Positions 5,588 to 41,394 of a stretch of DNA of 64,000 bases are shown here, in pieces; the first letter of the stretch is position 1; the number at the start of each line of letters is the position of its first letter. The position numbers and the translations under genes are program-made. The notes beneath the pieces are model-generated. The model saw only the letters and a program-made list of their open reading frames with translations, was not told where the DNA came from and ran no database searches. The DNA is from Sulfuricurvum sp. (GTDB taxonomy: Bacteria; Campylobacterota; Campylobacteria; Campylobacterales; Sulfurimonadaceae), in the NCBI GenBank assembly GCA_028718525.1, contig JAQULP010000008.1:1-64000 (forward strand), written 5' to 3'.

Positions 5588-6026
5588 TTGGCTTGGTTGG
5601 GCACATGATGCGGTGGATTACGGAATCATCGGAATCTTGGTACTTATGAGTGTCGTGTCTTTATGGCTGTTTATCGAACGCCTAATGGCGTATGGGGCAA
5701 TACGTATTAGCGATTATGAGTCCAAAGAGGAACTTGAACTGGATTTGGGGAATAACGTTTCAACCATCGCTACAATCGGTTCAAATGCGCCGTACGTAGG
5801 ACTTTTGGGGACGGTTTTAGGGATTATGATCACGTTTTATACACTCGGTGATGTGGGTGCCGTCGATCCGAAAAAAATTATGACGGGGTTGGCTTTGGCC
5901 CTGAAAGCAACCGCCATGGGACTGGTTGTGGCTATCCCGGCGATTGTTTTTTATAATATCCTTCTCCGTAAAATGGAGCGTATTTTGGCAATGTGGGAGA
6001 TTAACGCTCACAAAAACCGAGGATAA
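5577..6026 (+). CDS. exbB: ExbB/TolQ-family proton channel subunit
   Basis: A 149-residue inner-membrane protein of the MotA/TolQ/ExbB family, which with ExbD turns proton-motive force into work on TonB. Three hydrophobic segments are seen (about 13-33, 68-92 and 105-127). The conserved second and third segments contain GLLGTVLGI and LALKATAMGLVVAIPA. It is the short ExbB type found in Campylobacterota. exbD follows after a 172-bp gap containing a hairpin. This motor may energise the TonB-dependent receptor at 29881-31920, though a TonB gene is not visible here. Confidence 0.9.
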   Translation: MENSWLGWAHDAVDYGIIGILVLMSVVSLWLFIERLMAYGAIRISDYESKEELELDLGNNVSTIATIGSNAPYVGLLGTVLGIMITFYTLGDVGAVDPKKIMTGLALALKATAMGLVVAIPAIVFYNILLRKMERILAMWEINAHKNRG

Positions 6027-6160
6027 TCATCAGAGATACCGGTATAGATACGCTCTCGAAGCGAACTCAGCGGGAGCAGAAGAGGCGTCGTTGAGTGAAA
6101 ATAGCTTCGTTTGCAGAGGTTTGGAATCCCAGGCGAAGGGGATGTCCCGCCGAACGATAG

Positions 6161-6178
6161 ATCGGAAATCATTCCGAT
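6161..6178. repeat. Hairpin in the exbB-exbD gap
   Basis: ATCGGAA (6161-6167) and TTCCGAT (6172-6178) form a perfect 7-bp stem with loop ATCA, ending about 20 bases before the exbD start. The right arm plus its flank (ATTCCGATAGC) recurs exactly in a hairpin just before hypA at 49985-49995. The whole 172-bp gap (6027-6198) lacks a supported gene and is unusually long for two genes that must be expressed together. Confidence 0.5.
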
Positions 6179-6198
6179 AGCATTTAAAAGGAGAAATT

Positions 6199-6582
6199 AT
6201 GAGATTGAAGCGGATTGATACGATCAACGTTATCCCTTTTATCGATATTATGCTGGTTTTGCTGGTGATGGTGCTGACGACGGCAACGTTCATCAAAACG
6301 GGACTTATCCCGGTTGATTTGCCGGAGGCCAAAGGGGCAGCGGCTGAACATAAACCCAGCGAATTGAAGCTGACCATCAAAAAAGACGGTACCCTATGGA
6401 TTGACGAGAAGAACGCCGTAACACTCGATCAGTTCGAACAACGGGTCACCGAAGGGGGAAAAGAGATGACGGTCGTATTGTACAGCGACAAAGAGGCGGC
6501 TTTTCAAAATTTTGTCGGGGTAATGGACGTTCTTAAGCGTCTCGGACACGAACAACTCTATATCGTCACGGACAAAAAGTAG
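6199..6582 (+). CDS. exbD: ExbD/TolR-family protein
   Basis: A 127-residue protein with one N-terminal transmembrane helix (about 12-34) and a periplasmic domain, the usual ExbD layout. The proton-carrying aspartate is expected in the helix, here in the IPFIDIMLVLLVM segment (D16). It works with ExbB (5577-6026) to power TonB-dependent outer-membrane transport. A strong AAAAGGAG ribosome-binding site precedes the ATG. The next gene starts five bases after its stop codon. Confidence 0.9.
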   Translation: MRLKRIDTINVIPFIDIMLVLLVMVLTTATFIKTGLIPVDLPEAKGAAAEHKPSELKLTIKKDGTLWIDEKNAVTLDQFEQRVTEGGKEMTVVLYSDKEAAFQNFVGVMDVLKRLGHEQLYIVTDKK

Positions 6583-6587
6583 CACGT

Positions 6588-7283
6588 ATGCACCAACTAA
6601 GCAACTATGTTTACGCACGCGATGAGCTTTTGGGGTGGGATATTCCGACCAAAAGGTTTCCGAACCCCTATCACGATTTTCCGTACATGGTGATCGAAGG
6701 GGTGCTTAGCCCTTCGGAATGCCGTGCGATAACGGATGCGGCTTTGGAAGATCATGAAGCGGTCAAAGCCAAGCTTCGGGGAAAAGCACTTGATACTGCC
6801 ATCCGAAAAACGGATATCCATACCCTCAGCCCTGAACATCTCGCCCTTTATCAACACCGTTTTGATGCGATTCGGGGTGAAATCGAAGCTTTTTTTGCCC
6901 TTTCGCTCAGCCGTGCGACGGACGTTCAGGTACTTGGGTATGAGAGCGGATCGTTTTATCTGAAACACAGTGACGATTCGAGTGAGCTTCGCAACCGAGA
7001 GGGAGAGACGGTAGGTTTTACCCCGGTAGCTCCGGAGCGAAAAGTGACGACGGTGTTATTTACCACCTCGTATACGCCTCATCCCACCGATAGAGATCAT
7101 TTTAGCGGGGGAGAGCTCCTTTTTAACTACCTTTGCGATCACTTGGGAAATACGATTACCCTCCGTCCTGAGGCCGGGGATATGGTGGTATTTTTGAGCA
7201 ACCCCTATTTTTCGCATGAAGTACTTCCCGTTAAAGAGGGGTTTAGACTTTCGCTGGTTCAATGGCATGATGCCCTTGGTTAA
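6588..7283 (+). CDS. 2-oxoglutarate/Fe(II)-dependent oxygenase (prolyl 4-hydroxylase-like)
   Basis: A 231-residue cytoplasmic enzyme of the 2OG-Fe(II) dioxygenase superfamily. The iron triad is H127 and D129 (in YLKHSDDS) with the distal H210 (in YFSHEVLPV), and R220 in GFRLSLVQW is placed to bind 2-oxoglutarate. The GGELLFN segment at about 174-180 is typical of prolyl-hydroxylase-like and PKHD-type families. The substrate cannot be told from the sequence. It sits directly behind exbBD; PKHD-type oxygenases often accompany iron-uptake genes, which is an analogy rather than proof. Confidence 0.82.
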   Translation: MHQLSNYVYARDELLGWDIPTKRFPNPYHDFPYMVIEGVLSPSECRAITDAALEDHEAVKAKLRGKALDTAIRKTDIHTLSPEHLALYQHRFDAIRGEIEAFFALSLSRATDVQVLGYESGSFYLKHSDDSSELRNREGETVGFTPVAPERKVTTVLFTTSYTPHPTDRDHFSGGELLFNYLCDHLGNTITLRPEAGDMVVFLSNPYFSHEVLPVKEGFRLSLVQWHDALG

Positions 7284-7339
7284 CGTCCGATCGACTCTGT
7301 AGCCGTTTGGGTTAATCCCTGATCGGGAAGAGATTGGGT

Positions 7340-7345
7340 TATAAT
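7340..7345 (+). promoter_or_regulatory. Putative -10 box of the DUF475 gene
   Basis: TATAAT lies 26 bp before the ATG at 7372, giving a short leader with TTAAGGAA as ribosome-binding site. The gene is therefore probably transcribed on its own. Confidence 0.45.
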
Positions 7346-7371
7346 TTCGGATCACTTTATTAAGGAATCCG

Positions 7372-8352
7372 ATGCGCTACTTTTACAGCTCGTTCGTGAT
7401 CATGGCATTGGGCCTGATTGCCTCTTACTATCTTGGCGGACTTGCCGCTATTTACATTACCCTCTTGTTGATCATTTTGGAAATTTCATTGTCGTTTGAT
7501 AATGCGGTGGTGAATGCCAAAGTGTTGGACACGTTAGAGCCCGTTTGGCAAAAACGGTTTATTTTCTTCGGTCTTCCGATTGCCGTTTTTGGGATGCGTT
7601 TGGTATTTCCCCTTGCGATTGTCGCCCTTGTTACGGGGATGGGGATGCTTGAGACATTGCAGGTAGCCATGGATGAACCAGAGCGGTACGAGAAGATCCT
7701 CAAATCCACGGAGTCTACGATTTTCGCCTTCGGAGGCGCTTTTTTGCTGATGGTTTTTTTGGATTTCTTTTTTCAGGAACATGATGTAAAATGGGTGACG
7801 TTTGTCGAAGGTTCCAAAATCGTCGAACGTTTTTCGGGAGTTGCCAACATTGAGTTGATTACCGCTATTATGGTCGGTATTATGCTGGGGCATTTGACAC
7901 AGGATTTCGGGGTCGTTCTCGCATTTATGTACGGGGTCTTGCTGCATTCGCTTTTGGGGATGCTGGACCATTTCCTCTCGTCAGATACCGTTAAAAGCGG
8001 TCTGGCCGGTTTTATTTATCTGGAAGTTTTGGATGCGAGTTTCAGCTTCGACGGTGTGATCGGGGCGTTTGCACTCACCAGCAATATTTTTATCATTATG
8101 ATCGGTTTGGGGGTAGGTGCGATGTTCGTCCGGAGCCTTACACTCTATTTCGTCGAACACAAAACACTCTCGGAATTTCGTTATCTTGAACACGGTGCCC
8201 ATTATGCGATCGGTATTTTGGCTTTGATTATGCTGATGAAAATTACGGTACACGTTAGTGAAATGGTTACGGGAACTATCGGTATCGGATTGATCACGAT
8301 AGCCTTTTTGCACTCGATTTGGGAAAACAGACGTCTTAGCCGTCTCCCGTAA
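7372..8352 (+). CDS. DUF475 / TerC-like integral membrane protein
   Basis: A 326-residue protein with about eight to nine hydrophobic helices, matching the DUF475 family of the TerC/LysE-like transporter superfamily. The acidic membrane motif EISLSFDNAVVNA (about 38-50) and its counterpart EVLDASFSFDGVIGA (about 219-233) are the typical paired EXXLSXDN-like repeats. Members of the wider TerC group are linked to metal (manganese, tellurite) handling, but no substrate is proven for DUF475. It stands alone between a short promoter region and a 165-bp gap. Confidence 0.85.
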   Translation: MRYFYSSFVIMALGLIASYYLGGLAAIYITLLLIILEISLSFDNAVVNAKVLDTLEPVWQKRFIFFGLPIAVFGMRLVFPLAIVALVTGMGMLETLQVAMDEPERYEKILKSTESTIFAFGGAFLLMVFLDFFFQEHDVKWVTFVEGSKIVERFSGVANIELITAIMVGIMLGHLTQDFGVVLAFMYGVLLHSLLGMLDHFLSSDTVKSGLAGFIYLEVLDASFSFDGVIGAFALTSNIFIIMIGLGVGAMFVRSLTLYFVEHKTLSEFRYLEHGAHYAIGILALIMLMKITVHVSEMVTGTIGIGLITIAFLHSIWENRRLSRLP

Positions 8353-22456: not shown

Positions 22457-22924
22457 ATGAGCACTCCCGAACCAACTGTAATCCGAGCCCAAACGTTTAC
22501 TCCGATGTACTCCCAAACCGAAGACCGTATCCGACTGGTGATCAATTACGCCGATTACGCCAATCGGGTCGATTTGTGGTTGACACGGGCGTTTTTACTG
22601 AAACTGATCCCCAGTATCGACGATTGTCTCGATGGGTATGAAACAACCGCCCCCAGCTCCGAAGTGCAAAAACAGACCGATAAAACAGCACAGACCCAAA
22701 CCGATGCCCCGACGCTTACGATGACGGAAAAACAGGGATATCTCGTTCATGCCGTCGATATTACCCACCACAAAGAGAGTCAGCAGTTCAGCCTCTTGTT
22801 TAAAACCGAGCAGCCGCAGGTACGTGCCACCCTCACCGCACCGCTGTTGCGGACGGTTTTGAAATCGATCTTTGCGGCAATACCGAAGATTGAGTGGGGA
22901 ATATCTCCGCAATGGATACGCTAA
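22457..22924 (+). CDS. Hypothetical protein
   Basis: A 155-residue soluble protein I do not recognise. It has no signal peptide or membrane segment. Two predicted structured parts (about 1-60, with IRLVINYADYANRVDLWLTR, and about 90-155, with GYLVHAVDITHHKESQQFSLLFK) are joined by a polar T/Q-rich linker (about 68-90). A -10 box TATAAT lies at 22420-22425, 31 bp upstream of the ATG. It stands between the stress-switch operon (divergent) and the fused hydrogenase gene 54 bp downstream. An overlapping frame beginning at 22387 looks non-coding. Confidence 0.6.
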   Translation: MSTPEPTVIRAQTFTPMYSQTEDRIRLVINYADYANRVDLWLTRAFLLKLIPSIDDCLDGYETTAPSSEVQKQTDKTAQTQTDAPTLTMTEKQGYLVHAVDITHHKESQQFSLLFKTEQPQVRATLTAPLLRTVLKSIFAAIPKIEWGISPQWIR

Positions 22925-22978: not shown

Positions 22979-25408
22979 ATGCGGATCGTTATTGTCGGAG
23001 GCGGGATTGCCGCTGTGTATATTGCCAATACGCTCATGGCGCAGGATAGCAGATCGGATGTTGTGATTGTTTCGGATGAAGAGCACCCTCCGTATGACCG
23101 GATTCATCTGTGTAAATTAGTAGAAGATTGCAAGTGTGTCGACTCTATTGAACTCGAACTGCATCCTGCCGTTCGGCTGGAACTGAACCAAAAAATCATT
23201 TCGCTTGATCCTGACGCCAAACGGGTATTCAGCGAGCATGCCGCATTTCATTACGACAAACTGATCATTGCTACCGGTTCGGTTCCCAAAACTCTTTTTA
23301 ATATTTCCGAAATTGAAAATGCCGCGACCTTCCGTTCGCAGAAAGATTGCGAAGCGATTGCGCAGGGGATTGTCGGGAAAAACGTCGTTATCGTCGGGGC
23401 AGGACCGATCGCACTGGAACTTCTCGATACGCTGGTACGCAGTAAGGACCCTAAAACCCTAACGCTGTTGGTCCGTAAAAACTACCTTTATTCCGAGGTG
23501 ATCAGCCGTGAAGGGCTGGAATTGATACGGGGAATTTTTGAAACGGATCCCCGCGTACGTATCCGTTTTAACGACCAGATTGTGGATAAAGAGGTTCGCG
23601 GCCATACCCTTACGAAAATTTTGACCAAGCAAGGGGAGATAATCGAGGACCCTTTTATTGTTTTCGGCGTGGGGATCGATCCGAATATCCCTTTTGCCCG
23701 TGAAACGCTCGAATGCGATAAGGGAATTTTGGTCAATGAGCGGATGCAGACCTCCATCGAGGATATTTACTGCGTCGGCGAAGCGGCACAGCTTCGCAAG
23801 GGGGGATTTATCGCCGGGCGGGTCAAAGAGTGTACGCTTCAAGCCGATATCGCAATCGCCAATCTCCTCGGAGACGGAGAGAAAACCTTTCAAGAAGAGG
23901 TCTCTATCGACGGACTCAAAGTGGGCTCTTTTTTATTCGCTGATGTTACGGCGACCGATTTTAACCCAAAAGATGGCGAGAACGAAACGATTCTGATCGC
24001 CCACGGGGATCGGATTGATCAGTACATTGTCAACCATGACCGGCTGAAACGGTTTATCGGGATCAATACCAATATCGATCTTTTGGCGCTGAAACGGCTT
24101 ATGGCAACCGATTCTCCGATCGATGCGGCGTATCTGTATTCCAACCGTCTGATGTCGGAATATGGGCGTTTGGTCTGCAGCTGCGAAGGGGTGCATGAAC
24201 AGGAGCTGGTCGATATCATCAAAGAGAATGCGGTAACGTCATTCGGCGAACTGAAAGAACACTCCAGTGCGGGACGTACCTGCGGACGGTGCAAACAGGA
24301 TATATGCGCCATCATCAGTGCCACCCCTGTCGATCCCGAAGAGGCGGCGCGGCTCAAACAAGAGCGAAAAGCGGCGGCCGAAGCGGCAGAACTGGCCAAA
24401 GTGCGTGCACGTATCGATAAATACAATGCCCTGCACCCTGCCAACCAGCTCAGCGGTGAAAATCTTGATGAAGCGCTCAAATCGTTCGAGATGAGCAAGG
24501 AGTATAACCGTTGGGTCTCGATGATCACCGCATCGATGCATTTGCATCCGAGCTATGAAGAGCCGGTCAAAGAGGCGGTAGTCCAGTTGAACAAGATCCC
24601 GATCATTTGGCTCGAACTCGCCGATTGTACGGGCAACTCGGAAGCCTTTATCAAAACATCCCACCCTAAAGTGGATGATTTGATCCTCAAATACATTTCG
24701 CTCGATTACCATGAACTGTTGATGGCGGGATCGGGAGACCAATCGGAATCGGCGCTGGAGAGTATCCTCCAAAACGATAGCGGAAAATATCTCCTGCTGG
24801 TCGAGGGGGCGGTCCCCCTTGGGCTGGACGGCAAATTTTTGCGGATCGGTCCGAAAGGGGAAACGGGGCTGGAGTTGCTCCGCCGGGTCGCAAAAAATGC
24901 CGCGGCGGTGATGTCGGTCGGTTCCTGTGCGTATGACGGCGGCGTCGTTGCCGCTCACCCCAATCCGACGGGTGCGGTAGGGGTCGCCGAAGCATTGGGG
25001 CGCGATGATATTATCAACCTCCCCGGATGTCCTACCAATCCGATCAATATCGTCGGAACGCTGCTGCACTATATTATGTTTGATGAATTTCCGAAGCTAG
25101 ACAGCCATAACCGTCCCGAATGGGCGTACGGATTTCGGGTGCATGACAACTGTGAACGCCGAGGCCATTACGATGCGGATGAATTTGTGCTCGAATGGGG
25201 AGATGAGGGGGCGAAGAAGGGGTGGTGCCTTTTTCAAATGGGGTGTAAAGGGCCGTATGCCGATCTCAACTGCTCGCTGGTGAAATTCAATGAGGGGACG
25301 AGCTGGCCGGTTCAGGCAGGGCATGGATGTTTTGCCTGCGGACAGGGAAAAATAGCGTTTGACCTGTACGCCAATAACCGTAAATTACCGGAGGAAAATC
25401 ATGAGTAA
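22979..25408 (+). CDS. FAD oxidoreductase - [2Fe-2S] - [NiFe]-hydrogenase small subunit fusion
   Basis: An 809-residue fusion. Residues 1-380 are an FAD/NAD(P)-dependent oxidoreductase like the N-terminal part of NirB (FAD-binding GGGIAAVYIA at 7-16; second nucleotide-binding VIVGAGPIALE at 137-147). Residues 395-445 carry a BFD-like [2Fe-2S] motif (C400-x-C402, C435-x2-C438). Residues 535-790 are a [NiFe]-hydrogenase small subunit with Fe-S ligands C550, C650, C684 (proximal), H722, C725, C750, C756 (distal) and C765, C784, C787 (medial). The fourth proximal ligand is N553 instead of Cys. There is no Tat signal or membrane anchor, so it should be cytoplasmic. Electrons from H2 would run through the clusters to FAD and probably NAD(P). 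The large subunit gene overlaps by 8 bases. Confidence 0.9.
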   Translation: MRIVIVGGGIAAVYIANTLMAQDSRSDVVIVSDEEHPPYDRIHLCKLVEDCKCVDSIELELHPAVRLELNQKIISLDPDAKRVFSEHAAFHYDKLIIATGSVPKTLFNISEIENAATFRSQKDCEAIAQGIVGKNVVIVGAGPIALELLDTLVRSKDPKTLTLLVRKNYLYSEVISREGLELIRGIFETDPRVRIRFNDQIVDKEVRGHTLTKILTKQGEIIEDPFIVFGVGIDPNIPFARETLECDKGILVNERMQTSIEDIYCVGEAAQLRKGGFIAGRVKECTLQADIAIANLLGDGEKTFQEEVSIDGLKVGSFLFADVTATDFNPKDGENETILIAHGDRIDQYIVNHDRLKRFIGINTNIDLLALKRLMATDSPIDAAYLYSNRLMSEYGRLVCSCEGVHEQELVDIIKENAVTSFGELKEHSSAGRTCGRCKQDICAIISATPVDPEEAARLKQERKAAAEAAELAKVRARIDKYNALHPANQLSGENLDEALKSFEMSKEYNRWVSMITASMHLHPSYEEPVKEAVVQLNKIPIIWLELADCTGNSEAFIKTSHPKVDDLILKYISLDYHELLMAGSGDQSESALESILQNDSGKYLLLVEGAVPLGLDGKFLRIGPKGETGLELLRRVAKNAAAVMSVGSCAYDGGVVAAHPNPTGAVGVAEALGRDDIINLPGCPTNPINIVGTLLHYIMFDEFPKLDSHNRPEWAYGFRVHDNCERRGHYDADEFVLEWGDEGAKKGWCLFQMGCKGPYADLNCSLVKFNEGTSWPVQAGHGCFACGQGKIAFDLYANNRKLPEENHE

Positions 25409-27098
25409 TACCCAAAAAATTGTTATTGACCCGATTACCCGCATCGAGGGGCATTTACGGATTGAGGTTGAGATCGATGAAAACAATGTCGTGACCGAAG
25501 CATGGGCATCAGGGCAGCTTTTTCGGGGGATTGAGACGATTTTAAAAGGGCGTGATCCCCGGGACTCGGGGCTGATCGCTCAGCGCATCTGCGGAGTGTG
25601 TACGAATGTCCATTATCGCGCGTCGATCAGTGCCGTTGAGGATGCGTACGGAATAAAAATTCCTTCCAATGCTGAAATCGTCCGAAATCTGGTCACCCTC
25701 GCCTTATTCGTTCAAGACCATATCGTCCACTATTATCATCTTCATTCGCTTGATTTTGTCGATATTACGGCCGCCCTCGGGGCTGATTGCAAGAGAGCTT
25801 CCTTCGAGGCGGAGAAGTGGACAGATCACCCTTATCGCAATTCGGTGGGACATCTGGAGAGCATTCAGGAGAAAATCGGCGGATTCGTCAAAGCGGGGCG
25901 TCTTGGGCTGTTCGCAAACGGCTATTGGGGTCATACGGCCTATCGGCTCTCACCGGAAGAGAATCTGGTGCATATGAACCATTATCTCGAAGCGCTGCGG
26001 ATACAGCGGGAAATTTCCAAAGCGATCGCTATTTTCGCGGGCAAAACCCCCCATCCCCAAAATCTCGTTGTCGGGGGGATAACGAGTGTTGCCGACATGC
26101 TCAATCCTCAGCGGCTGAACGATTTTATGTTTATCATCAAAGAGGTGCGCGATTTTGTCGAGAGGGCTTATATCCCCGATCTTAAAATGATTGTCTCTGC
26201 CTATCGTGATTCGATTCGAGCAGGCGAGGGGAGAGCGAGCGGGAATTTCATGTGCTGCGGCGGTTACCGTTTCGGCAAAAACGGAACGCTCTTCAGCCCA
26301 GGGGTTATCCGCGGGCATGATTTTACCCGTATCGAACCGTTTGATCCCTCCAACATTACCGAGGAGGCTTCCCGTTCATGGTATGAAAATGACGGGCCGC
26401 TCTCTCCGTATGAGGGGGAAACGGTTCCATTTTATACCGATTTGAATGAGGACGGAACCCTGAAATCGGAGGGGAAATACAGTTGGGTCAAAGCGCCTCG
26501 ATATGAGGGCGATGTGATGGAAGTGGGCCCTTTGGCCCGGATGATCATGGGGTACAGCTCGAACTCTTCGGTGATCCGTCCCTATATGGAACGGTTTATG
26601 GAGCAGACGGGGATGGAGTTGATCGATTTCTCTTCCACGATCGGGCGTAATGCGGCACGGGCCATCGAAGCGCAGATTTGCGGAGATTATCTGTTTGACA
26701 TGATGAGCGATCTGATCGAGAACATTAAGTATTACGATGAAGAGACGTGGACGAAGTATGTTTTCGAATCTTTGCCGAGCGAGGCCAGGGGTGCCGGAAT
26801 ATTTGAAGTCCCGCGCGGTGTTTTAGGCCATTTCGTCCGGATTGAAAATGCAAAAATCGCGAATTATCAGGCGGTAGTCCCGACAACGTGGAATGCCTCG
26901 CCCAAGGGGATCAAAGAGGGGCGCGGAGCCTACGAAGAGTCTCTGATCGGGATACGCCTTGCCGATCCGGCCGCCCCGTTGGAAGTATTGCGTGCGGTTC
27001 ACTCGTTTGATCCGTGCCTGGCATGTGCCGTCCATGTGATCGATGCGACAGGCTGCGAACTCTCGCACTATAAGATTTCCCCGACGTGTGCGCTATAA
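25401..27098 (+). CDS. [NiFe]-hydrogenase large subunit, partner of the fused small subunit
   Basis: A 565-residue catalytic subunit. The nickel ligands are C64 and C67 in RICGVC, and C539 and C542 in the C-terminal DPCLACAVH. A 20-residue tail after H545 would be removed by a maturation protease after nickel insertion. The start at 25401 follows GGAGG and lies inside the small-subunit 3' end (ATGAGTAA overlap). Frames that extend upstream would lack a ribosome-binding site. Sequence is close to HydB at 33376-35151 over its whole length, so the two enzymes share ancestry. It is expected to sit in the cytoplasm because its partner has no export signal. Confidence 0.95.
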   Translation: MSNTQKIVIDPITRIEGHLRIEVEIDENNVVTEAWASGQLFRGIETILKGRDPRDSGLIAQRICGVCTNVHYRASISAVEDAYGIKIPSNAEIVRNLVTLALFVQDHIVHYYHLHSLDFVDITAALGADCKRASFEAEKWTDHPYRNSVGHLESIQEKIGGFVKAGRLGLFANGYWGHTAYRLSPEENLVHMNHYLEALRIQREISKAIAIFAGKTPHPQNLVVGGITSVADMLNPQRLNDFMFIIKEVRDFVERAYIPDLKMIVSAYRDSIRAGEGRASGNFMCCGGYRFGKNGTLFSPGVIRGHDFTRIEPFDPSNITEEASRSWYENDGPLSPYEGETVPFYTDLNEDGTLKSEGKYSWVKAPRYEGDVMEVGPLARMIMGYSSNSSVIRPYMERFMEQTGMELIDFSSTIGRNAARAIEAQICGDYLFDMMSDLIENIKYYDEETWTKYVFESLPSEARGAGIFEVPRGVLGHFVRIENAKIANYQAVVPTTWNASPKGIKEGRGAYEESLIGIRLADPAAPLEVLRAVHSFDPCLACAVHVIDATGCELSHYKISPTCAL

Positions 27099-27131: not shown

Positions 27132-27725
27132 TTGGCACGGTTGAGCAAGGAAGAGCGTAAAATTTCTATTATGACCAAGGCGTTGGAACTGTTTTCGACC
27201 GAAGGTTTTTATCAGACGACGATGCCTTCCATTGCCGAAAAAATAGGGATGAGCGTCGGAAACCTCTATAACTATTTTACCTCGAAAGAGATGCTGGCAA
27301 AAGATCTGATCCTTTACATCGCCAATATTTTGGGAGAGGAAATTCGTAAAATAAACGAAAGCCCCCTCTCGACCAAAGAGAAAATCGATGCGATCGTCCA
27401 TATGTATTTCAAGATTGCACAAGAGCGTCCCGAAACCATAGAGTATTTTTTACGGGTCTATCTTTCGAATCGAGAAGTCTTCCAAAACTGTTGCGAAGGG
27501 ATGATCTGCGTATCGGCATTCGTCACCGAGCTGATGATTTTTTTCGAAGAGGGGGTTCGATGCGGAGATCTTCGGGATCAGGATTTTTTCAGCGCATTCG
27601 GCCTTTTCATGGGATATTTGGGGGGAATGGTTTTTTTAAACGGAGAAAAAATCCTCCCCAAATCGCTGGAGAGTTACGAACTCTCGATCAGCGATAACAT
27701 CTATCATGCCCTCAAATCCCGCTAA
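27132..27725 (+). CDS. TetR-family transcriptional regulator
   Basis: A 197-residue repressor-type regulator. The N-terminal DNA-binding domain (about 8-55) shows the TetR pattern with TTMPSIAEKIGMSVGNLYNYFTSKEMLAKDLI. The rest is an alpha-helical ligand or partner domain. It starts at TTG after GAGGAAGAG. Its 3' end overlaps the hydrogenase-like small subunit gene by 20 bases, so it is translated together with the putative H2 sensor. It probably regulates one or more of the hydrogenase operons; direct coupling to the sensor is a hypothesis. Confidence 0.9.
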   Translation: MARLSKEERKISIMTKALELFSTEGFYQTTMPSIAEKIGMSVGNLYNYFTSKEMLAKDLILYIANILGEEIRKINESPLSTKEKIDAIVHMYFKIAQERPETIEYFLRVYLSNREVFQNCCEGMICVSAFVTELMIFFEEGVRCGDLRDQDFFSAFGLFMGYLGGMVFLNGEKILPKSLESYELSISDNIYHALKSR

Positions 27726-28602
27726 ACTCAAAATTATCTGGCTGCAGGGGATCACCTGCAACGGCAATACCCACTCTTTTTTAAACGATCCCTCTTTGGG
27801 AAGGCTTTTGGAGTCGGTAGAATTTATCCACCATCCCCTATTGGCGTGTACCCTTAATCTCAGCGAGCTTGTCGAACACCTTCCCGCATCGGATATTCTG
27901 ATTATCGAAGGTTCCTACAAAGCCGATTTTGAACGTGCTTACCGGCGGATGGACAGCGTACTCCCGGCGCTTGCGGCCAAGGCGGAACATATCGTTTCCT
28001 TGGGAAGCTGTGCCAGTTTCGGGGGGATATTCAAAGAGGCTGATCCCGAACGTATCAGCGGCATCGTTTTCGATCGGGAAAAAGCTCTCGGCCCGTTGGC
28101 GGAGATGATGCCGAAAGTCATAACCCTCAGCGGATGTCCGGTACACCCCAAATGGCTAACGTTTGTGATCGACATGATCCGAGCCGGAAAAGCGATAAGC
28201 GTCGATGAATTCCGCCGCCCCAAAGAGCTGTATGCCTATCTCGTCCACAACGGGTGTCTGCGCAACGAGTATTTTGAATGGAAAGTCGATAGCGACCGTT
28301 TCGGCACCAAAGAGGGGTGTTTGTTCTATGCACAGGGGTGTCAGGCCCCCTTTACCCACGGAAGCTGTAACAAAATCCTCTGGAATGAGGTGAGTTCAAA
28401 AACCCGTTCGGGAACCCCATGTTTCGGATGTACCGAACCCTCTTTTCCCAAGAGGGAACTTTTCTCGACGAAAACGTACATGTCGATTCCGGCCGAAGTT
28501 CCGCTGGGTGTCCCGAAACGGAGTTATCTCGCCTTGACGGGTGCGGCGAAATCGTTTCATATCAAGCGGCTTGAAGAGAGGTTGATCGATGATAACGCAT
28601 GA
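27706..28602 (+). CDS. [NiFe]-hydrogenase small subunit, sensor (HupU-like) type
   Basis: A 298-residue small subunit without Tat signal or C-terminal anchor, so cytoplasmic. The proximal motif is C18-N-G-N21, again with Asn in place of the second Cys, followed by GSCASFGG and SGCPVHP. The distal H-x2-C (HNGC), the EGCLFYAQGC segment and the medial ligands GSCNK and CFGC are all present, so three clusters can still be formed. Its lack of targeting and its compact partner, which has no processing tail, fit the group 2 regulatory and uptake types (HupU/HoxB-like). It overlaps both the TetR gene and the large-subunit gene. Confidence 0.85.
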   Translation: MPSNPAKLKIIWLQGITCNGNTHSFLNDPSLGRLLESVEFIHHPLLACTLNLSELVEHLPASDILIIEGSYKADFERAYRRMDSVLPALAAKAEHIVSLGSCASFGGIFKEADPERISGIVFDREKALGPLAEMMPKVITLSGCPVHPKWLTFVIDMIRAGKAISVDEFRRPKELYAYLVHNGCLRNEYFEWKVDSDRFGTKEGCLFYAQGCQAPFTHGSCNKILWNEVSSKTRSGTPCFGCTEPSFPKRELFSTKTYMSIPAEVPLGVPKRSYLALTGAAKSFHIKRLEERLIDDNA

Positions 28603-29884
28603 ACTGATCGAGAGGATCGAAGGGGAGGCGGTACTCGATTTTCGCACCGATAGAGAGGGGAGAGTCGAAGAGGCGAATATCCGTTTTTTGCATTTTCGGG
28701 GGATGGAAGCGATTTTAGAGGGGAGAAATGCTCTGGACGCCCTCGTGATCGCTCCCCGCGTTTGCGGTATCTGCGGACACTCCCATCTGATCGCGGCGGC
28801 GCGGATGTTGGAAAACCTCTATCAAAACGGAGGTGAAGCCCTCCCCATTACGTCTAAGGCCTATGCAATACGTGAAATAACCCGTTTGTGCGAAGTGATG
28901 CAAAATCATATCAAATGGCTTTATCTGGTGATGCTGCATGAGAGCGGAAAGCTTTTGAAACTGGAACCTCCATCCGCCCTCAAGGCCCTCTATGTATCTT
29001 CCAAGATCAATCAATTGTGCGCCCTTTTCAGCGGGCAATGGCCCCACAGTTCGTATGCCCTTCCGGGGGGAGTGACGTGCGATCCTACCCATATTGAAGT
29101 GATGCAGGCTCTAAAAATTCTCTCGGAGGTGGAGGGTTTTGTCCGGGAAGATATTTTGGGATGCGATGTCCAGGCGTATGAATATACACTGTCGGATGGT
29201 TCACTCCTTGGGTTGAGTGGAGATTTCGGAACGCTTCTGCGCCGGTTTGAAGAGCTAGAGCTTCTTGAATCGGGGAAAAGCTATGGCCGATATTTGGCTT
29301 TGGGGGATGAAATCGGGGTATGGGAGAAAGGGGAACGTTCTTTGGCCGATCTCAACCTTGTCCGCGAAGACGGATCGAAGAGCTTTGATCAGGGGGGAAA
29401 TATGTATGCGAAAAATGCCCTTTACGGGGGAGAATTTTATGAGACGGGGCCGTTGGCCCGCGCAATGCTCACCAATCGTACGGGGATAGCGAACCTCCAT
29501 AACCGATACGGCGATACGGCACTGACCCGCCTGAGTGCCCGGGTCGACGAGGTCGTCGTGATCCTAGCCCGGGTAGAGGAACTTTTGCGTACGCTTGAGC
29601 TCTCGGAGGCTTCGTTCATCCCCCCCGAGCCGATACAGACCCTCAGTGCAGAAGGGGTAGGGATCGTCGAAGCACCGCGCGGTTCGCTGATCCATCGTGC
29701 CCGTATCGAAAAAGGGAAAATAACGGCGTACTCGATCATCACCCCGACCCAGTGGAATTTGGGAAACGGTACGGCGACGTTGCCCGGAATCGCCCAAAAA
29801 GCGATGATCGGTGCCGATTCCATTGCCAAAGCTTCGTTGATTTTCCGAACGTTTGACGTGTGTTCGGTCTGCACGACCCACTAA
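28589..29884 (+). CDS. [NiFe]-hydrogenase large subunit without processing tail, sensor (HupV-like) type
   Basis: A 431-residue large subunit, clearly shorter than the two enzymatic ones (565 and 591). Nickel ligands are C59 and C62 (RVCGICGHSH) and C425 and C428 in the terminal DVCSVCTTH. The protein ends exactly at the histidine where a maturation protease would cut others, so no cleavage is needed. That is the known hallmark of HupV/HoxC H2-sensing hydrogenases. With the overlapping TetR and small-subunit genes it makes a compact signalling module. The gene converges tail-to-tail with the TonB receptor, overlapping by 4 bases. Confidence 0.88.
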   Translation: MITHELIERIEGEAVLDFRTDREGRVEEANIRFLHFRGMEAILEGRNALDALVIAPRVCGICGHSHLIAAARMLENLYQNGGEALPITSKAYAIREITRLCEVMQNHIKWLYLVMLHESGKLLKLEPPSALKALYVSSKINQLCALFSGQWPHSSYALPGGVTCDPTHIEVMQALKILSEVEGFVREDILGCDVQAYEYTLSDGSLLGLSGDFGTLLRRFEELELLESGKSYGRYLALGDEIGVWEKGERSLADLNLVREDGSKSFDQGGNMYAKNALYGGEFYETGPLARAMLTNRTGIANLHNRYGDTALTRLSARVDEVVVILARVEELLRTLELSEASFIPPEPIQTLSAEGVGIVEAPRGSLIHRARIEKGKITAYSIITPTQWNLGNGTATLPGIAQKAMIGADSIAKASLIFRTFDVCSVCTTH

Positions 29885-32107: not shown

Positions 32108-32121
32108 TGAATGGTTGTTCA
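32108..32121. promoter_or_regulatory. Palindromic operator copy 2 (hydABC promoter)
   Basis: TGAATGGTTGTTCA. Together with the following ATAAA it matches the nickel-permease site and flank at 17 of 19 positions (32108-32126 against 45992-46010). Both sites sit just downstream of a -10 box. Confidence 0.65.
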
Positions 32122-32144
32122 TAAAATTTGCTGAGGAGGGGATT

Positions 32145-33383
32145 ATGTCCGATAGAGTAGAAGCGGTTAAAAAACTGTTCACATCGAAAAGTTCGCGCAT
32201 CGAAACGAACAAGGGTGAAACGTATTACCAAGAGTTGTTTGCGAAATGCGAGGCGCGTTTGAATGAGATGCGTTCGATGCAACCGGCGAACAAGCTCGAT
32301 TTTACCGATATTTTGGAAGATAACGGGATAGATCGACGGGAGTTTATGAAGTGGGCGAGTGCAACGACGGCAATGCTGATGCTCCCTCCGATGTTCACAC
32401 CGCTCGTTGCCGATGCGGCAATGATGATGAACCGTGCACCGGTTATCTGGTTGGAACTTCAAGACTGTGCAGGTAATTCCGAGGCTCTCTTGCGTGCTGA
32501 CGGGCCGAAAATCGATGAGATCGTTTTGGACATCATCTCCTTGGAATTTCACGAAACCCTCCAAGCCGCATCTGGCCATCAGGCGGAAAAGCAACTTGAT
32601 GAAGCAATGGAACATTTCAAAGGAAAGTATCTCCTCTTTGTTGAAGGATCTATTCCGATGGGGATGAACGGTCAATACGGAACAATCGGTGCCAAAGCCG
32701 AGACGTTCCACGACCACCTTCTCCGTTGTGCCGAAAATGCGGCAGCGGTTATTGCCGTCGGAAGCTGTGCCACCTTCGGCGGTATTCCTGCCGCTTCACC
32801 GAACCCTACCGGGGCAGTCGGGGTGATGGATGTCGTTAAAAACAAACCGCTTATCAATATTCCGGCATGTCCGGCCAATCCGGCCAATATGGTCGGTGTG
32901 ATTTTACACTACGTGTTAACGGGACAGGTTCCGGAACTCGATTCGCTGTTGCGTCCTAAATTTGCTTTCGGTTACCGTATCCATGACAACTGCGAACGCC
33001 GTGCCCATTTCGATGCGGGTGAATACGTCGAAGAGTGGGGTGATACCGGTGCGCAAAACAACTTCTGTTTGTACAAAATGGGGTGTAAAGGGCCGATGAC
33101 GTTTAACAACTGCTCCATTGTCCGTTATAACGAAGCGGTAAACTGGCCGATTGGGGTCGGACGGGGATGTATCGGATGTTCCGAACCCGATTTTTGGGAC
33201 AAATATGCGTATGAGCGTCCGATGGCCGATGCTAAGATCAAAGCACCGACGGGCGGGGTAGAAAAAACCGTCGATGAATTCGGGTTGGGGCTGTTGACCG
33301 CCGCCGGAATCGGAATCGGAATCCATGCCGCAGCCAGTGCCGTAGCCGGCAAACGAGAAAATTCAGGAGAGAGCCATGAGTAA
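32145..33383 (+). CDS. hydA: Membrane-bound [NiFe]-hydrogenase small subunit
   Basis: A 412-residue uptake hydrogenase small subunit. About 60 residues precede the Tat motif D63-R-R-E-F-M-K (R64-R65) and hydrophobic signal, an arrangement known from epsilon-type HydA. A C-terminal transmembrane anchor (about 383-402; GLLTAAGIGIGIHAAA) fixes it to HydC. Fe-S ligands are visible: C108 with N111 at the usual second-Cys position, GSCATFGG and ACPANPAN (proximal), IHDNC and YKMGC (distal), NNC and CIGC (medial). It oxidises H2 in the periplasm and passes electrons to the quinone pool. ATG 32145 follows GAGGAGGG. Confidence 0.95.
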   Translation: MSDRVEAVKKLFTSKSSRIETNKGETYYQELFAKCEARLNEMRSMQPANKLDFTDILEDNGIDRREFMKWASATTAMLMLPPMFTPLVADAAMMMNRAPVIWLELQDCAGNSEALLRADGPKIDEIVLDIISLEFHETLQAASGHQAEKQLDEAMEHFKGKYLLFVEGSIPMGMNGQYGTIGAKAETFHDHLLRCAENAAAVIAVGSCATFGGIPAASPNPTGAVGVMDVVKNKPLINIPACPANPANMVGVILHYVLTGQVPELDSLLRPKFAFGYRIHDNCERRAHFDAGEYVEEWGDTGAQNNFCLYKMGCKGPMTFNNCSIVRYNEAVNWPIGVGRGCIGCSEPDFWDKYAYERPMADAKIKAPTGGVEKTVDEFGLGLLTAAGIGIGIHAAASAVAGKRENSGESHE

Positions 33384-35151
33384 GCACATTGTAGTTGACC
33401 CGATTACCCGTATCGAAGGGCATTTACGTATCGAAGCGGTCATTGATGAGAATAACACGATTGTCGATGCGTACAGCGCTTCGACCATGTTCCGCGGGAT
33501 TGAGACGATTTTACAAGGACGCGACCCTCGTGACTGCGGATTGTTGGCAATGCGTATCTGCGGTGTTTGTACCGGTACTCACTATCAGCGTTCTATCGAA
33601 GCGGTTGAGGATGCGTTTAACATTACGATTCCGAAAAATGCCCGTATCGTCCGTAACCTGATCCAAGGTGCGCTCTATGTGCATGACCACGTGGTCCATT
33701 TTTACCACCTCCATGCACTCGATTTCGTTGATGTGGTGTCGGCATTGTCGGCTGATCCGGCCAAAACGGCGGCGGAAGCGCGTAAATGGGCTTCGGTTGC
33801 GGGGGAATCTCCGTATATAGACGGTGAGAGTCAATTTAAAGAGATCCAGGACCGTGTGGCTAAATTCGTTAAGCAAGGGCGTTTGGGAATTTTCGGAAAC
33901 GGTTACTGGGGCAATCCCCATTATAAATTGACCCCGGAACAAAACCTGATCGGGGTGGCACACTACTTGATCGCATTAGACGTACAACGTGATTTGGCGA
34001 AAATGCAGGCAATTTTCGGAGGTAAAAACCCGCATCCGCAATCGATTGTTGTCGGCGGGGTCACCTGTGTTCAGGATATCCAAAATCCGGCACGGCTTGC
34101 TCTATTTAAATCGCTCCTTCTGGAAGGGCGCAAATTCGTCAAACAAGCCTATTTGCCGGACGTCTATATGGCAGGTACGATGTATGCCGGCGAAGCGACC
34201 GATTCCAAAGCGACGTTTAGCGAATTGATGGCGGGCAAAGGGGTCGGCGGAACCGGCGGCGGATTGCTCAATTATATGAGTTACGGCGATTTCCGCCTTG
34301 ATGATACCGGTTTTTACAAATCGGCGCTCCTTTTCCCAAAAGGGGTGGTAATGGGGGGAGATATCTCCAAAGTACTTCCGCTGGATGAAGCAAAAATTGC
34401 CGAAGACGTAACCCATGCATGGTACAAAGGTTCTAAACCTCTCCATCCGTACGAAGGGGAAACCATTCCTGAATATACGGGGCTTGACAAACGTGAAGAC
34501 GGCATTGCTTACCTTAAAACCAAAGAGAAATACAGTTGGATTAAATCGCCGATTTACAACGATACCCGTGTGGAAGTGGGGCCGTTGGCCCGTATGGTGA
34601 TCGGTGTCGCGGCAAAAGACAAACGGATTACGAAATACGTAACGGAATTTTTAGAGCGGGGCAACCTCCCGATTGCGGTGTTGTTCAGTACCGTCGGCCG
34701 TACGGCGGCGCGGGCGATTGAAACATCCTTGATGTCGGATGTCATGATCGAATGGATCGATGAATTGGCACATAATGTCCTTTCCGGTGATAAAAGTACA
34801 TGGACGGAGTTTAATTTCGATGAGGTAAGCGTCAGCGCCAAAGGGCGCGGTATGGCGGAAGCCCCGCGCGGAGCACTAGGACACTGGGTACGTGTTGAAA
34901 ACGGAAAAGTGGCCAACTATCAGGCGATCGTCCCATCGACATGGAACGCGGCACCGCGTGATTATAAAAACCGCCTAGGTGCTTACGAAGCGAGTTTGAT
35001 CGGAACGAAAGTGGCCAATCCGGAGCAGCCGCTTGAGATTATCCGTACGATTCACAGTTTTGACCCTTGTATCGCCTGTGCGGTTCACGTCGTCGATACC
35101 AAAGGTAAAGAGCTTGCTGTTTACAAAGTAGATACCTCTTGCAGTATCTAA
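33376..35151 (+). CDS. hydB: Membrane-bound [NiFe]-hydrogenase large subunit
   Basis: A 591-residue catalytic subunit, exported together with HydA by the Tat pathway. Nickel ligands are C62 and C65 (RICGVC) and the pair in the C-terminal DPCIACAVH. The 20 residues after H571 form the tail removed during maturation. The start overlaps the end of hydA by 8 bases (ATGAGTAA-type overlap, the same as in the fused-hydrogenase pair), which supports duplication of a common ancestral operon. Confidence 0.96.
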   Translation: MSKHIVVDPITRIEGHLRIEAVIDENNTIVDAYSASTMFRGIETILQGRDPRDCGLLAMRICGVCTGTHYQRSIEAVEDAFNITIPKNARIVRNLIQGALYVHDHVVHFYHLHALDFVDVVSALSADPAKTAAEARKWASVAGESPYIDGESQFKEIQDRVAKFVKQGRLGIFGNGYWGNPHYKLTPEQNLIGVAHYLIALDVQRDLAKMQAIFGGKNPHPQSIVVGGVTCVQDIQNPARLALFKSLLLEGRKFVKQAYLPDVYMAGTMYAGEATDSKATFSELMAGKGVGGTGGGLLNYMSYGDFRLDDTGFYKSALLFPKGVVMGGDISKVLPLDEAKIAEDVTHAWYKGSKPLHPYEGETIPEYTGLDKREDGIAYLKTKEKYSWIKSPIYNDTRVEVGPLARMVIGVAAKDKRITKYVTEFLERGNLPIAVLFSTVGRTAARAIETSLMSDVMIEWIDELAHNVLSGDKSTWTEFNFDEVSVSAKGRGMAEAPRGALGHWVRVENGKVANYQAIVPSTWNAAPRDYKNRLGAYEASLIGTKVANPEQPLEIIRTIHSFDPCIACAVHVVDTKGKELAVYKVDTSCSI

Positions 35152-35161
35152 GGAGAATATC

Positions 35162-35872
35162 ATGAAACAGGGGTACAGACAAGTCAAACGTATGACGCCC
35201 GCCATGCGGATTATTCACTGGGTGAATGCGATTTGTATGATCGGAGCGGTTGTAACGGGACTGTATATCGGCCATCCGTATTATCAGACGTTCATCGCTG
35301 ATGGTGCCGTCGATAAATACGTAATGGCATGGAACCGTTACGGACATTTTATTATTGCGATTATCTTTGACGTAACGTCGGTGATTATCGCATATCTCTA
35401 TTTTTTCAGCCGTTTTGAAAAGCCGTACAAAAAGCTTATCCCTAACGCTAAAAATGTGAGCGAGTTTAAAGCGGTATTGGTGAACCTGCTCACCCTAAAC
35501 CGTAAAAAAGAGTTTGATTCTTCCCATGCGGACAGTTTCAATACCGTTTATTTCACGATTTTTCATCTGTTGCTCATTTGGATGCTTTTGACCGGGCTTC
35601 AAATGTACGTTCACGGATTGGAATCGGGGATCAGTTCGATCGGATCATGGTGGCCGGTAATGCTCCATGCGACAACCGATTGGACGGTCGCGGTATGCGG
35701 AGGAAGCTTGATGGATGTCCGTATATCTCACCATATGACGATGTGGCTGATCCTGTGCTGGGTCGTATTTCATATCTATTATCAGGTGTGGAGAACTATA
35801 TTCTGGAAAGAGGCGGATATCGCGATTGTTATCGGCGGCTCTAAATTTGTCAAAGACGATACGTTACACTAA
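35162..35872 (+). CDS. hydC: Ni/Fe-hydrogenase cytochrome b subunit
   Basis: A 236-residue inner-membrane di-heme cytochrome b that links HydAB to the menaquinone pool. Four hydrophobic helices are visible (about 15-36, 58-80, 124-145 and 193-213), with candidate heme histidines H19 (RIIHW) and those in FHLLLIWM, MLHATTDW and WVVFHIYYQ. It lies 10 bases after hydB with a good ribosome-binding site (AAGGAG). Two hairpins follow the gene. Confidence 0.94.
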   Translation: MKQGYRQVKRMTPAMRIIHWVNAICMIGAVVTGLYIGHPYYQTFIADGAVDKYVMAWNRYGHFIIAIIFDVTSVIIAYLYFFSRFEKPYKKLIPNAKNVSEFKAVLVNLLTLNRKKEFDSSHADSFNTVYFTIFHLLLIWMLLTGLQMYVHGLESGISSIGSWWPVMLHATTDWTVAVCGGSLMDVRISHHMTMWLILCWVVFHIYYQVWRTIFWKEADIAIVIGGSKFVKDDTLH

Positions 35873-40286: not shown

Positions 40287-40844
40287 ATGGAAGCAAAAGT
40301 GGCCCTTATCGGTTCGGGAAATGCATTTTTTATGGATGAGGGGATCGGTTTATACGCAGGAAAATACCTCAAAGAAAATTTTACCTACGAACCGCCGCTG
40401 GATATTGTCGACGGAGGGACATTGGGATTTCGGTTGATGCCGTTGCTCCAGGAGTATGAACATGTCATTATTGCCAATACCGGATCCAGCGATGATAAGC
40501 CGATCGGCACGATTGAAGTTCTCAGCGGTGAAGAGCTGATCGCGAATCAAGGGATTAAAAAAACAGCCAACGAAGTCGAGATAACCGAAATGCTCCAAAT
40601 TTGTTCAATGGCGACCCACTGTGCGCAAACGACGATTATCAGCATCATCCCCGAGGATATCCTCAGTGTCTGCGTCGATGTGACTCCGTCGATGCGTGCC
40701 AAATGGGACGAATACATCGAGAGGATCGTAGCAGAGCTGAACCAATGCGGGATATCGGCCATCCCAAAAGGGACACTTATGGATCTGGATACGATTCTCG
40801 AACAATTTGCCAACCCGAGCATCGAACACGGCAAAGGGTTTTAA
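40287..40844 (+). CDS. Hydrogenase maturation protease paralogue, probably inactive
   Basis: A 185-residue member of the HybD/HydD endopeptidase family, which trims the large-subunit tail after nickel insertion. The glycine-rich start (IGSGNAFFMDEGIG) and E18 match the first nickel ligand. The other two ligands of E. coli HybD (D62 and H93) correspond to N64 (VIIANTG) and N95 (KKTANEVE). With two of three ligands lost, proteolysis is unlikely. The protein may act as a decoy, chaperone or assembly factor. It lies one base ahead of an intact paralogue and 71 bp after hypF. Confidence 0.8.
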   Translation: MEAKVALIGSGNAFFMDEGIGLYAGKYLKENFTYEPPLDIVDGGTLGFRLMPLLQEYEHVIIANTGSSDDKPIGTIEVLSGEELIANQGIKKTANEVEITEMLQICSMATHCAQTTIISIIPEDILSVCVDVTPSMRAKWDEYIERIVAELNQCGISAIPKGTLMDLDTILEQFANPSIEHGKGF

Positions 40845-40845
40845 C

Positions 40846-41394
40846 ATGGCAACGGTGGTACTAGGGGTAGGAAATGTACTCGAAGAGGATGACGGGATCG
40901 GCATTTACGCGTGTGCCTACCTTAATGCCAACTATACGTTTGAACCTGACATAGAGGTCATCAACGGCGGCGTCGAGGGGATCAATCTGCTCAATCTCTT
41001 TTTGGAAAACGAGCGGATAGTTATCCTCGATACGATCAATCTTGACGATACCGCCGGAAGCATTTACAATATCCCCTCGTATGAACTGAGCGGCTACGGG
41101 CTCAACAGCGGCGGTGCACACGAAGTGGGGGTGATGCAGTGTCTGGATATGATTGAACTGATGGGATACCCTTTGCCTGAATCCAATGTGATCGGGATCG
41201 TTCCTCGCAGCATTACGTTTCATATGGGGTTGAGCCGGGAGCTTGAGGAGCGATTTAATGACTATATAAATACAGTTATTAACTACCTTAAAACATGCGG
41301 TGTGACGGCCACCGAAAAAGAGAAAAACAGCACTCTCTTATCGATTATCGAAGCGTTTAAATACCCTTCTCATCAGGGTAGAGGAATCGATTAA
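40846..41394 (+). CDS. Hydrogenase maturation protease
   Basis: A 182-residue HybD/HydD-type endopeptidase that removes the C-terminal extension of hydrogenase large subunits. The ligand set D16 (EDDGIG; usually Glu), D62 (VILDTIN) and H92 (GGAHEVG) is preserved, so it should be active on HydB and perhaps on the large subunit at 25401. ATG 40846 follows AAAGGG, one base past the previous stop. Extension upstream would run into that gene. It corresponds in position to hydD of Wolinella and Helicobacter. Confidence 0.88.
   Translation: MATVVLGVGNVLEEDDGIGIYACAYLNANYTFEPDIEVINGGVEGINLLNLFLENERIVILDTINLDDTAGSIYNIPSYELSGYGLNSGGAHEVGVMQCLDMIELMGYPLPESNVIGIVPRSITFHMGLSRELEERFNDYINTVINYLKTCGVTATEKEKNSTLLSIIEAFKYPSHQGRGID

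Follow-up and report, generated by a model that had tools for sequence, protein, structure and literature searches.

The window examined here is a 64,000-nucleotide stretch of a Sulfuricurvum sp. genome (contig JAQULP010000008.1). On its forward strand one open frame of 809 codons joins a flavin adenine dinucleotide (FAD) domain, an iron–sulfur (Fe–S) module and the small subunit of a [NiFe]-hydrogenase, and the gene of a large subunit follows directly. The front of the protein has the type of reductases using nicotinamide adenine dinucleotide or its phosphate (NAD, NADP), and between front and small subunit lies a remnant of a twin-arginine translocation (Tat) signal. The features of the locus are as follows.

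22979..25408, plus strand: gene of the fused small subunit, 809 amino acids (one frame, domains by profile)
22979..24148, plus strand: FAD/NAD(P) domain, residues 1-390, NirB/ferredoxin-reductase type (Pfam, NCBIfam, Foldseek)
23378..23494, plus strand: nucleotide site, residues 134-172, GxGxx(A/G)xE and V165-R166 (alignments)
24170..24319, plus strand: BFD-like [2Fe-2S] module, residues 398-447, with C400, C402, C435 and C438 (Pfam, alignment)
24392..24592, plus strand: linker, residues 472-538, derived from the N-terminus of a small subunit exported by Tat, twin arginine lost (alignment, profile)
24593..25369, plus strand: [NiFe] small-subunit core, residues 539-797, with 10 of 11 Fe–S ligands and Asn553 in place of one proximal Cys (Pfam, alignment)
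25401..27098, plus strand: large subunit, 565 amino acids from the ATG at 25401, with a C-terminal extension for protease cleavage (Pfam, motifs)

The first-pass annotation of this DNA had read the frame as an FAD/NAD(P)H oxidoreductase, a [2Fe-2S] module and a small subunit in succession, and profile searches confirm all three modules. Pfam detects Pyr_redox_2 at residues 1-270 (1.7e-39), Fer2_BFD at 398-447 (5e-10), Oxidored_q6 at 550-697 (2.5e-26) and NiFe_hyd_SSU_C at 717-790 (2e-25). In NCBIfam the NirB family TIGR02374 is collinear with residues 3-450 and the hydrogenase small subunit family (hydA) covers residues 507-789; the hydA match is over its curated cut-off, the NirB match and several others are under theirs. 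The siroheme domain of NirB was not found in the 809 amino acids by Pfam, the FAD domain being followed by the BFD [2Fe-2S] domain. A NuoF-like flavin mononucleotide diaphorase was likewise not detected by Pfam, the search covering the two subunits of the enzyme; HoxFU was not looked for elsewhere in the genome. The suspicion that a sequencing or assembly artefact had joined two separate genes can be ruled out, since the fusion is present at full length in one frame in 17 of the 25 genomes of the genus (own genome included; 5 have a fragment and 3 none) and in all 80 named loci the FAD-BFD part runs on into the small subunit without a change of frame. These named loci, given L numbers below, are the best 80 of 121 confirmed named relatives. 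The alignment of 80 fusions used throughout comprises 74 of them together with the window and five further genomes, six named loci cut by a contig end being left out.

The cofactor residues of the front part are invariant in 80/80 aligned fusions. This holds for the four cysteines (CxC-x32-CxxC), for the FAD motif G7-x-G9 with E268 and for the nucleotide motif G140-x-G142 with E147. An AlphaFold2 model has a predicted local distance difference score (pLDDT) of ~90 in the FAD part, whose best Foldseek matches are putidaredoxin reductase and BphA4; an 87-amino-acid query gave no match in the PDB. Reductases of this type hand electrons to [2Fe-2S] ferredoxins, and Glu175 of BphA4, conserved in NADH-specific reductases, is thought to repel NADP (PMC7397466). 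At this position putidaredoxin reductase has an aspartate in the alignment with the fusion, and the fusion has V165. Across the 80 fusions the position is held by V, S, A, I, L or G and is acidic in none; it is followed by Arg in 78/80 (R166 in the window). We find that this nucleotide site looks NADP(H)-type. In line with this, all four crystallised BphA4 variants with T176R score above wild type against the window fusion (64.1-65.2 versus 63.0) and against the L134 fusion (56.2-57.6 versus 53.5).

The linker (residues 472-538) can be aligned with Tat-type group 1b small subunits at their N-termini. A profile built from 15 such N-termini gives all 80 fusion linkers 16.0-34.7 bits (19.9 for the window), and the best shuffled linker reached 11.2 bits among 1594 listed of 1600. 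All 15 Tat-type relatives carry the twin arginine and none of the 80 fusions does, the window having a gap and a K in these columns, so that the claimed absence of an export signal is borne out. Within the linker Trp, Met and Leu (each 80/80), Asn (79/80) and Pro (78/80) are nearly fixed, and the Met and the Asn differ from the Tat proteins at their columns; AlphaFold2 places helices at 506-519 and 524-539 with low confidence. We read this segment as a signal peptide that has lost export and probably acquired a structural role. With a Tat signal repurposed as linker, a periplasmic group 1b enzyme would therefore have moved inside the cell, and the linker clearly exemplifies the conversion of an export signal into an internal connector.

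The small subunit had been described as complete, which needs one correction. Of the 11 canonical ligand positions (4 proximal, 3 medial and 4 distal, as in Desulfovibrio gigas), 10 are kept in 79/80 fusions, the remaining row ending before the last ligand, and the second proximal Cys is replaced by Asn (Asn553) in 80/80. The same Asn occurs in 9/15 Tat-type relatives and in 3/3 HupU-like proteins, while E. coli Hyd-1 and Hyd-2, HoxK and HoxB have Cys; the four-Cys proximal cluster that marks group 1b is thus missing from the fusion and from 9/15 Tat-type relatives alike. Since these relatives share it, we reject Asn553 as a special mark of a dead enzyme. The Tat-type HydA proteins of Campylobacterota (L024, L137-L149 and window 32115) fall into two sets, with Asn (9) or Cys (6) as proximal ligand.

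The ATG of the large subunit overlaps the stop codon of the fusion and is preceded by GGAGG. Large subunits adjoining fusions have RxCxxC in 70/70 and DPCxxCxxH in 69/70 cases and a C-terminal tail of 14-22 residues. Among the 80 named loci such a gene was found in 54 by a distance rule and in 11 more with an upstream start; in L085 it is split in two frames, in L097 and L122 it is missing, and 12 loci are cut. After the fusions of L097 and L122 come other genes. A role of the fusion as H2 sensor is thought unlikely because sensor types lack the C-terminal extension that is kept here.

The fusion was surveyed in the phylum Campylobacterota. The FAD-BFD part is matched at 1e-20 in 50/397 genomes, which sorted by E-value comprise 38 with a close match, 1 with an interrupted copy and 11 with NirB-like matches alone; among the 38, where sequence was fetched, read-through into the small subunit was seen in five genomes besides the window and the others of the genus. 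In the interrupted copy (G351; L152, ~2840-8010) ~2.9 kb separate the part encoding residues 1-212 from that encoding residues 260-449. By title, the 80 named carriers belong to Sulfuricurvum, Sulfurimonas, Sulfurovum, Hydrogenimonas, Arcobacteraceae, unplaced Campylobacterota or bacteria, and two Piscirickettsiaceae (Gammaproteobacteria). Two metagenome-assembled genomes titled Helicobacter pylori PMSS1 and Flavobacteriaceae (L099, L130) also carry it; these titles are probably wrong, the sequences resembling environmental Campylobacterota. Close FAD-BFD matches occur in 6/62 genomes of the order to which one of the gammaproteobacterial carriers belongs, and in 2/2 gammaproteobacterial genomes searched the fusion is the only TIGR00391 small subunit.

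In the small-subunit tree 41 fusions form one clade (100/100), and in the large-subunit tree the 30 rows adjoining fusions do so as well (Shimodaira–Hasegawa-like approximate likelihood ratio 100), by which the fusion appears to have arisen once. Two gammaproteobacterial rows are nested inside the fusion clade (97/80), which suggests transfer from Campylobacterota. Both trees group the fusion subunits with Campylobacterota Tat-type 1b enzymes against 1c/1d; the outgroup was E. coli Hyd-1, Hyd-2 and Cupriavidus HoxK/HoxG, the classic Desulfovibrio 1b enzymes being left out, and the group labels are those in general use or given in papers. The fusions and the two Tat-type sets form a three-way fork whose branching order is without support in the small-subunit tree; we do not claim the fusion as sister of the Asn-type Tat clade. 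In six pairs of fusions the ratio of nonsynonymous to synonymous substitution rates (dN/dS) is 0.029-0.113 for the FAD part and the small-subunit part, which indicates purifying selection.

The layout, for which the first-pass annotation knew of no characterised enzyme, is not new. It was published by 2016 at the latest, and in 2006 as cited (Scott et al.): Hansen & Perner 2016 described it in Hydrogenovibrio XCL-2 and Sulfuricurvum kujiense and list Sulfurovum AR, Sulfurimonas autotrophica, Arcobacter nitrofigilis and Thioalkalimicrobium microaerophilum as further carriers (PMC4744846). Strain SP-41 carries the same 813-amino-acid gene, and its H2 use was tentatively ascribed to another enzyme of group 1d. 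This background, and what is said below of Ech in isolates, is drawn from PMC4744846, PMC6501319, PMC4149538, PMC2628731, PMC4584964, PMC12286921, PMC6265342, PMC11439405, PMC12403661, PMC7397466, PMC7952632 and PMC11411561. The words 2Fe-2S, BFD, NADP and Ech are absent from the main texts of PMC4744846 and PMC6501319, and in the accessible parts of the literature examined, which lies mostly outside subscription journals, neither the BFD module nor the Tat-derived linker, an NADP preference or a pairing with Ech was found. What is added here is the Tat-derived linker, the NADP(H)-type site, the ligand count and the Ech-like gene set in relatives described below.

Taken together, we consider with a probability of roughly 0.55 that the two subunits form a soluble cytoplasmic [NiFe]-hydrogenase in which electrons pass between H2 and NADP(H). 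In a single event, the FAD-BFD front of a NirB-like protein would have been joined in frame to a Tat-exported group 1b small subunit, whose signal peptide would have become an internal linker and kept the enzyme in the cytoplasm. H2 would be oxidised at the [NiFe] site of the large subunit, and the electrons would pass from a proximal [4Fe-4S] over a medial [3Fe-4S] to a distal [4Fe-4S] cluster and further over the BFD [2Fe-2S] cluster and FAD to NADP+. These cluster types, the route, NADP over NAD and the net direction from H2 to NADPH are what we infer. The first-pass idea of wiring H2 to a flavin and on to NAD(P) is thereby supported through the domains, the conserved cofactor residues and the predicted fold of the FAD part. 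If H2 reduces NADP+, this would be a compact two-subunit H2-to-NADPH route derived from a respiratory enzyme and not of the HoxFU type; it would be useful for biocatalytic NADPH supply and would explain NADPH in sulfur- and hydrogen-oxidising Campylobacterota without reverse electron transport.

Several observations weigh against this assignment, the proximal Asn of all fusions being one of them. AlphaFold2 performs poorly in the small-subunit half (blocks of 37-90, mostly 50-85; predicted template modelling score 0.55). Pro777 is kept, so that the medial cluster looks like [3Fe-4S], in which the fusion differs from the NAD(P)-linked enzymes of group 3. The highest dN/dS values are 0.206 for the BFD part and 0.235 for what was once the Tat part, and all of these ratios are rough because dS is >1 in many comparisons. 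The Arg after the Glu175 position is absent in 2/80 fusions, L095 having Ile, and the same Arg is present in NirB-like proteins of five genomes from another family (taken for NirB from their length and alignment). The BphA4 scores are supporting and not decisive because two variants without T176R also exceed wild type, E175Q/Q177K against both the window and L134, and E175C/Q177G against L134, not against the window. Hansen & Perner detected no hydrogenase activity in any fraction of XCL-2 under the conditions tested and doubted Fe–S binding, calling the Fe–S motifs not conserved (PMC4744846). An activity report for the fused layout was not found in the accessible parts of the literature examined.

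The best surviving alternative, to which we give a rather low probability, is the same electron route with NAD(H) as partner, the protein then being a one-polypeptide substitute for a HoxFU diaphorase. According to Hansen & Perner, Scott et al. 2006 reported an NADH-binding site (PMC4744846), and the GxGxxG form proposed for NAD, that is Gly145, is present in 58/80 fusions. In the window this residue is Ala145, as proposed for NADP (PMC7397466). The Glu175 position, acidic in none of the fusions, and the Arg next to it in 78/80 argue against NAD(H).

It is improbable that an enzyme of this kind works mainly in reverse as a redox valve, oxidising NAD(P)H and releasing H2. Among PDB proteins the closest to the fusion small subunit are the Hyd-2 type enzymes, which are bidirectional, and many relatives also encode an Ech-type enzyme; H2, however, is the lower-potential couple, and sensor-type HupUV genes adjoin in the window and in 8/80 named loci, which fits H2 use.

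That the enzyme is inactive, is misassembled or uses a different acceptor such as quinone or ferredoxin, we regard as quite improbable. The published findings on XCL-2 speak for it; against it stand the conserved small-subunit ligands and large-subunit motifs, the purifying selection, the two gammaproteobacterial genomes in which the fusion is the sole small subunit and the proximal Asn common to Tat-type relatives. With 10/11 ligands kept and this Asn in 9/15 of those relatives, the published doubt on cluster binding is weakened and the question reopened, though such a count is no demonstration of activity. Flavin-based bifurcation, with H2 reducing NADP+ and ferredoxin at the single FAD, is very improbable: reverse tricarboxylic acid (TCA) cycle autotrophs need low-potential ferredoxin and the bifurcating flavoproteins NfnB and HdrA have Pyr_redox-type folds, but Pfam finds no second Fe–S branch fused, and the sole ferredoxin-like gene cluster shared by at least 5 loci belongs to the Ech set.

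Compared with known systems, the preferred H2:NADP(H) enzyme shares its inferred reaction with HoxFUYH and other group 3 NAD(P)-linked hydrogenases, which belong to another large-subunit group; HoxFUYH has a separate NuoF-like diaphorase. A HoxFU-type or group 3 enzyme is ruled out for the fusion and its large subunit by the domains and the large-subunit tree. NirB has the collinear FAD-BFD front and carries its siroheme part where the fusion has the hydrogenase small subunit. AorC of a tungsten aldehyde oxidoreductase (8c0z_E) is a similar FAD subunit that takes electrons from an Fe–S chain, but it is a separate subunit serving another catalytic centre. The Tat-type group 1b HydAB at 32115-35151 of the window has homologous subunits, the two small ones being 47% identical, and, unlike the fusion, a Tat motif, an adjoining cytochrome b gene and no flavin part. 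Putidaredoxin reductase and BphA4 share the fold of the FAD domain and differ in their separate [2Fe-2S] partner protein and NADH-specific acidic residue (PMC7397466). Closest is the XCL-2-type hydrogenase of Hydrogenovibrio crunogenus, with an 813-amino-acid small subunit, a pyridine nucleotide-disulfide oxidoreductase domain, no Tat signal and a large subunit classed as group 1b (Scott 2006 as cited; Hansen & Perner 2016; Gonnella 2019; PMC4744846, PMC6501319). The present protein, from Sulfuricurvum, has the traits of that type, namely a small subunit of ~810 amino acids, an N-terminal flavoprotein, no Tat signal and an adjoining large subunit. The label group 2d (huaSL) was discarded, as this name belongs to another pair in papers (PMC12286921).

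In part of the relatives a set of complex-I-like genes lies beside the fusion.

Ech-like set upstream of the fusion: L057-L062, L064, L065, L067, L073, L081, L084, L087, L097
NuoL-like/Ech-like genes downstream: L108, L111, L118, L121, L124, L126, L127, L136

Upstream sequence of 1 kb or more is available for 68 named loci, and 14 of these have NuoL-, NuoH-, NuoB-, NuoC-, NuoD- and NuoI-like genes upstream on the strand of the fusion, all six being called in 10 loci and 3 to 5 in the others. In 11 loci the last of these genes ends between 13 nt after and 3 nt before the fusion start. A NuoL-like gene downstream of the large subunit was seen in 8 loci; it follows immediately in 6, other genes intervene in 2, and the sequence ends before the whole set is visible. 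In L060 the six genes match complex-I-like families by profile, and 13 of 14 NuoD-like subunits carry both RVCGLC and DPCMSC, the last running into unread bases. Because of this gene content and these motifs we call the set a putative Ech-like group 4 hydrogenase. Ech is known from some Sulfurimonas and mangrove isolates, and a figure of PMC12403661 shows clusters of hydrogenase genes. A GroES-like gene precedes the Ech set, and this the fusion, in L057 and L073; in L096 a GroES-like gene adjoins the fusion without Ech (GroES-like genes recognised by eye); in L097 a diguanylate-cyclase-type gene stands between Ech set and fusion.

Across the phylum the NuoD-like subunit (at least 63% identity) is found in 27/397 genomes, and the fusion in 21 of these 27 versus 17 of the 370 others, an overlap counted by eye and not corrected for kinship of the genomes. 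In 15 of the 21 both lie within ~9 kb on one strand (Ech upstream in 10, downstream in 5), in 2 they are ~20 kb apart and in 4 on different contigs. It is conceivable, if doubtful, that the fused enzyme and the Ech-like hydrogenase of many relatives form one functional module with H2 as internal carrier. Ech would couple ferredoxin, H2 and an ion gradient and the fused enzyme H2 and NADP(H), and the pair would then set ferredoxin and NADPH levels in reverse-TCA autotrophs. No Ech-like set was found in the 64-kb window, and in its assembled genome (83% complete) the NuoD-like subunit is matched at no more than 28% identity, so that the Ech half of the proposed module is missing there. The fusion does not depend on Ech, because 17/38 fusion genomes of the phylum lack this type. 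The proposed use in a reverse-TCA autotroph is supported in part. The Ech-like set often adjoining in relatives speaks for it; against it stand the close FAD-BFD matches in six gammaproteobacterial genomes, which have no such Ech and whose order we take to consist of Calvin-cycle autotrophs.

Around the fusion the window contains further hydrogenase genes.

27132..27725, plus strand: TetR-family regulator (Pfam)
27706..28602, plus strand: HupU-like (sensor-type) small subunit (Pfam, alignment)
28589..29884, plus strand: HupV-like large subunit, no C-terminal extension (Pfam)
32115..33383, plus strand: Tat-type group 1b HydA paralogue, RREFMKW motif, proximal Asn (alignment)
33376..35151, plus strand: HydB, large subunit of the Tat-type enzyme (sequence comparison)
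35162..35872, plus strand: cytochrome b gene adjoining the Tat-type enzyme (profile)
40287..40844, plus strand: hydrogenase maturation protease, HycI family (profile)
40807..41394, plus strand: second maturation protease, HycI family (profile)

Directly upstream of the fusion lies a 155-amino-acid frame (22457-22924) that has no Pfam match and to which none of the genes called in the 80 named loci is related. On the other side the TetR-type gene overlaps the HupUV-like pair (27132-29884), with no kinase gene between or directly after them; the trio follows the large subunit in 8/80 named loci and possibly includes an unusually composed H2-sensing pair. A TonB receptor on the opposite strand stands between this pair and the Tat-type HydAB, whose cluster is accompanied by HypF-like and HypF genes. 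A HycI-type gene lies near the fusion in 21/80 named loci, its start at a median of 1.7 kb after the fusion, and one of the two proteases of the window may serve the fused enzyme.

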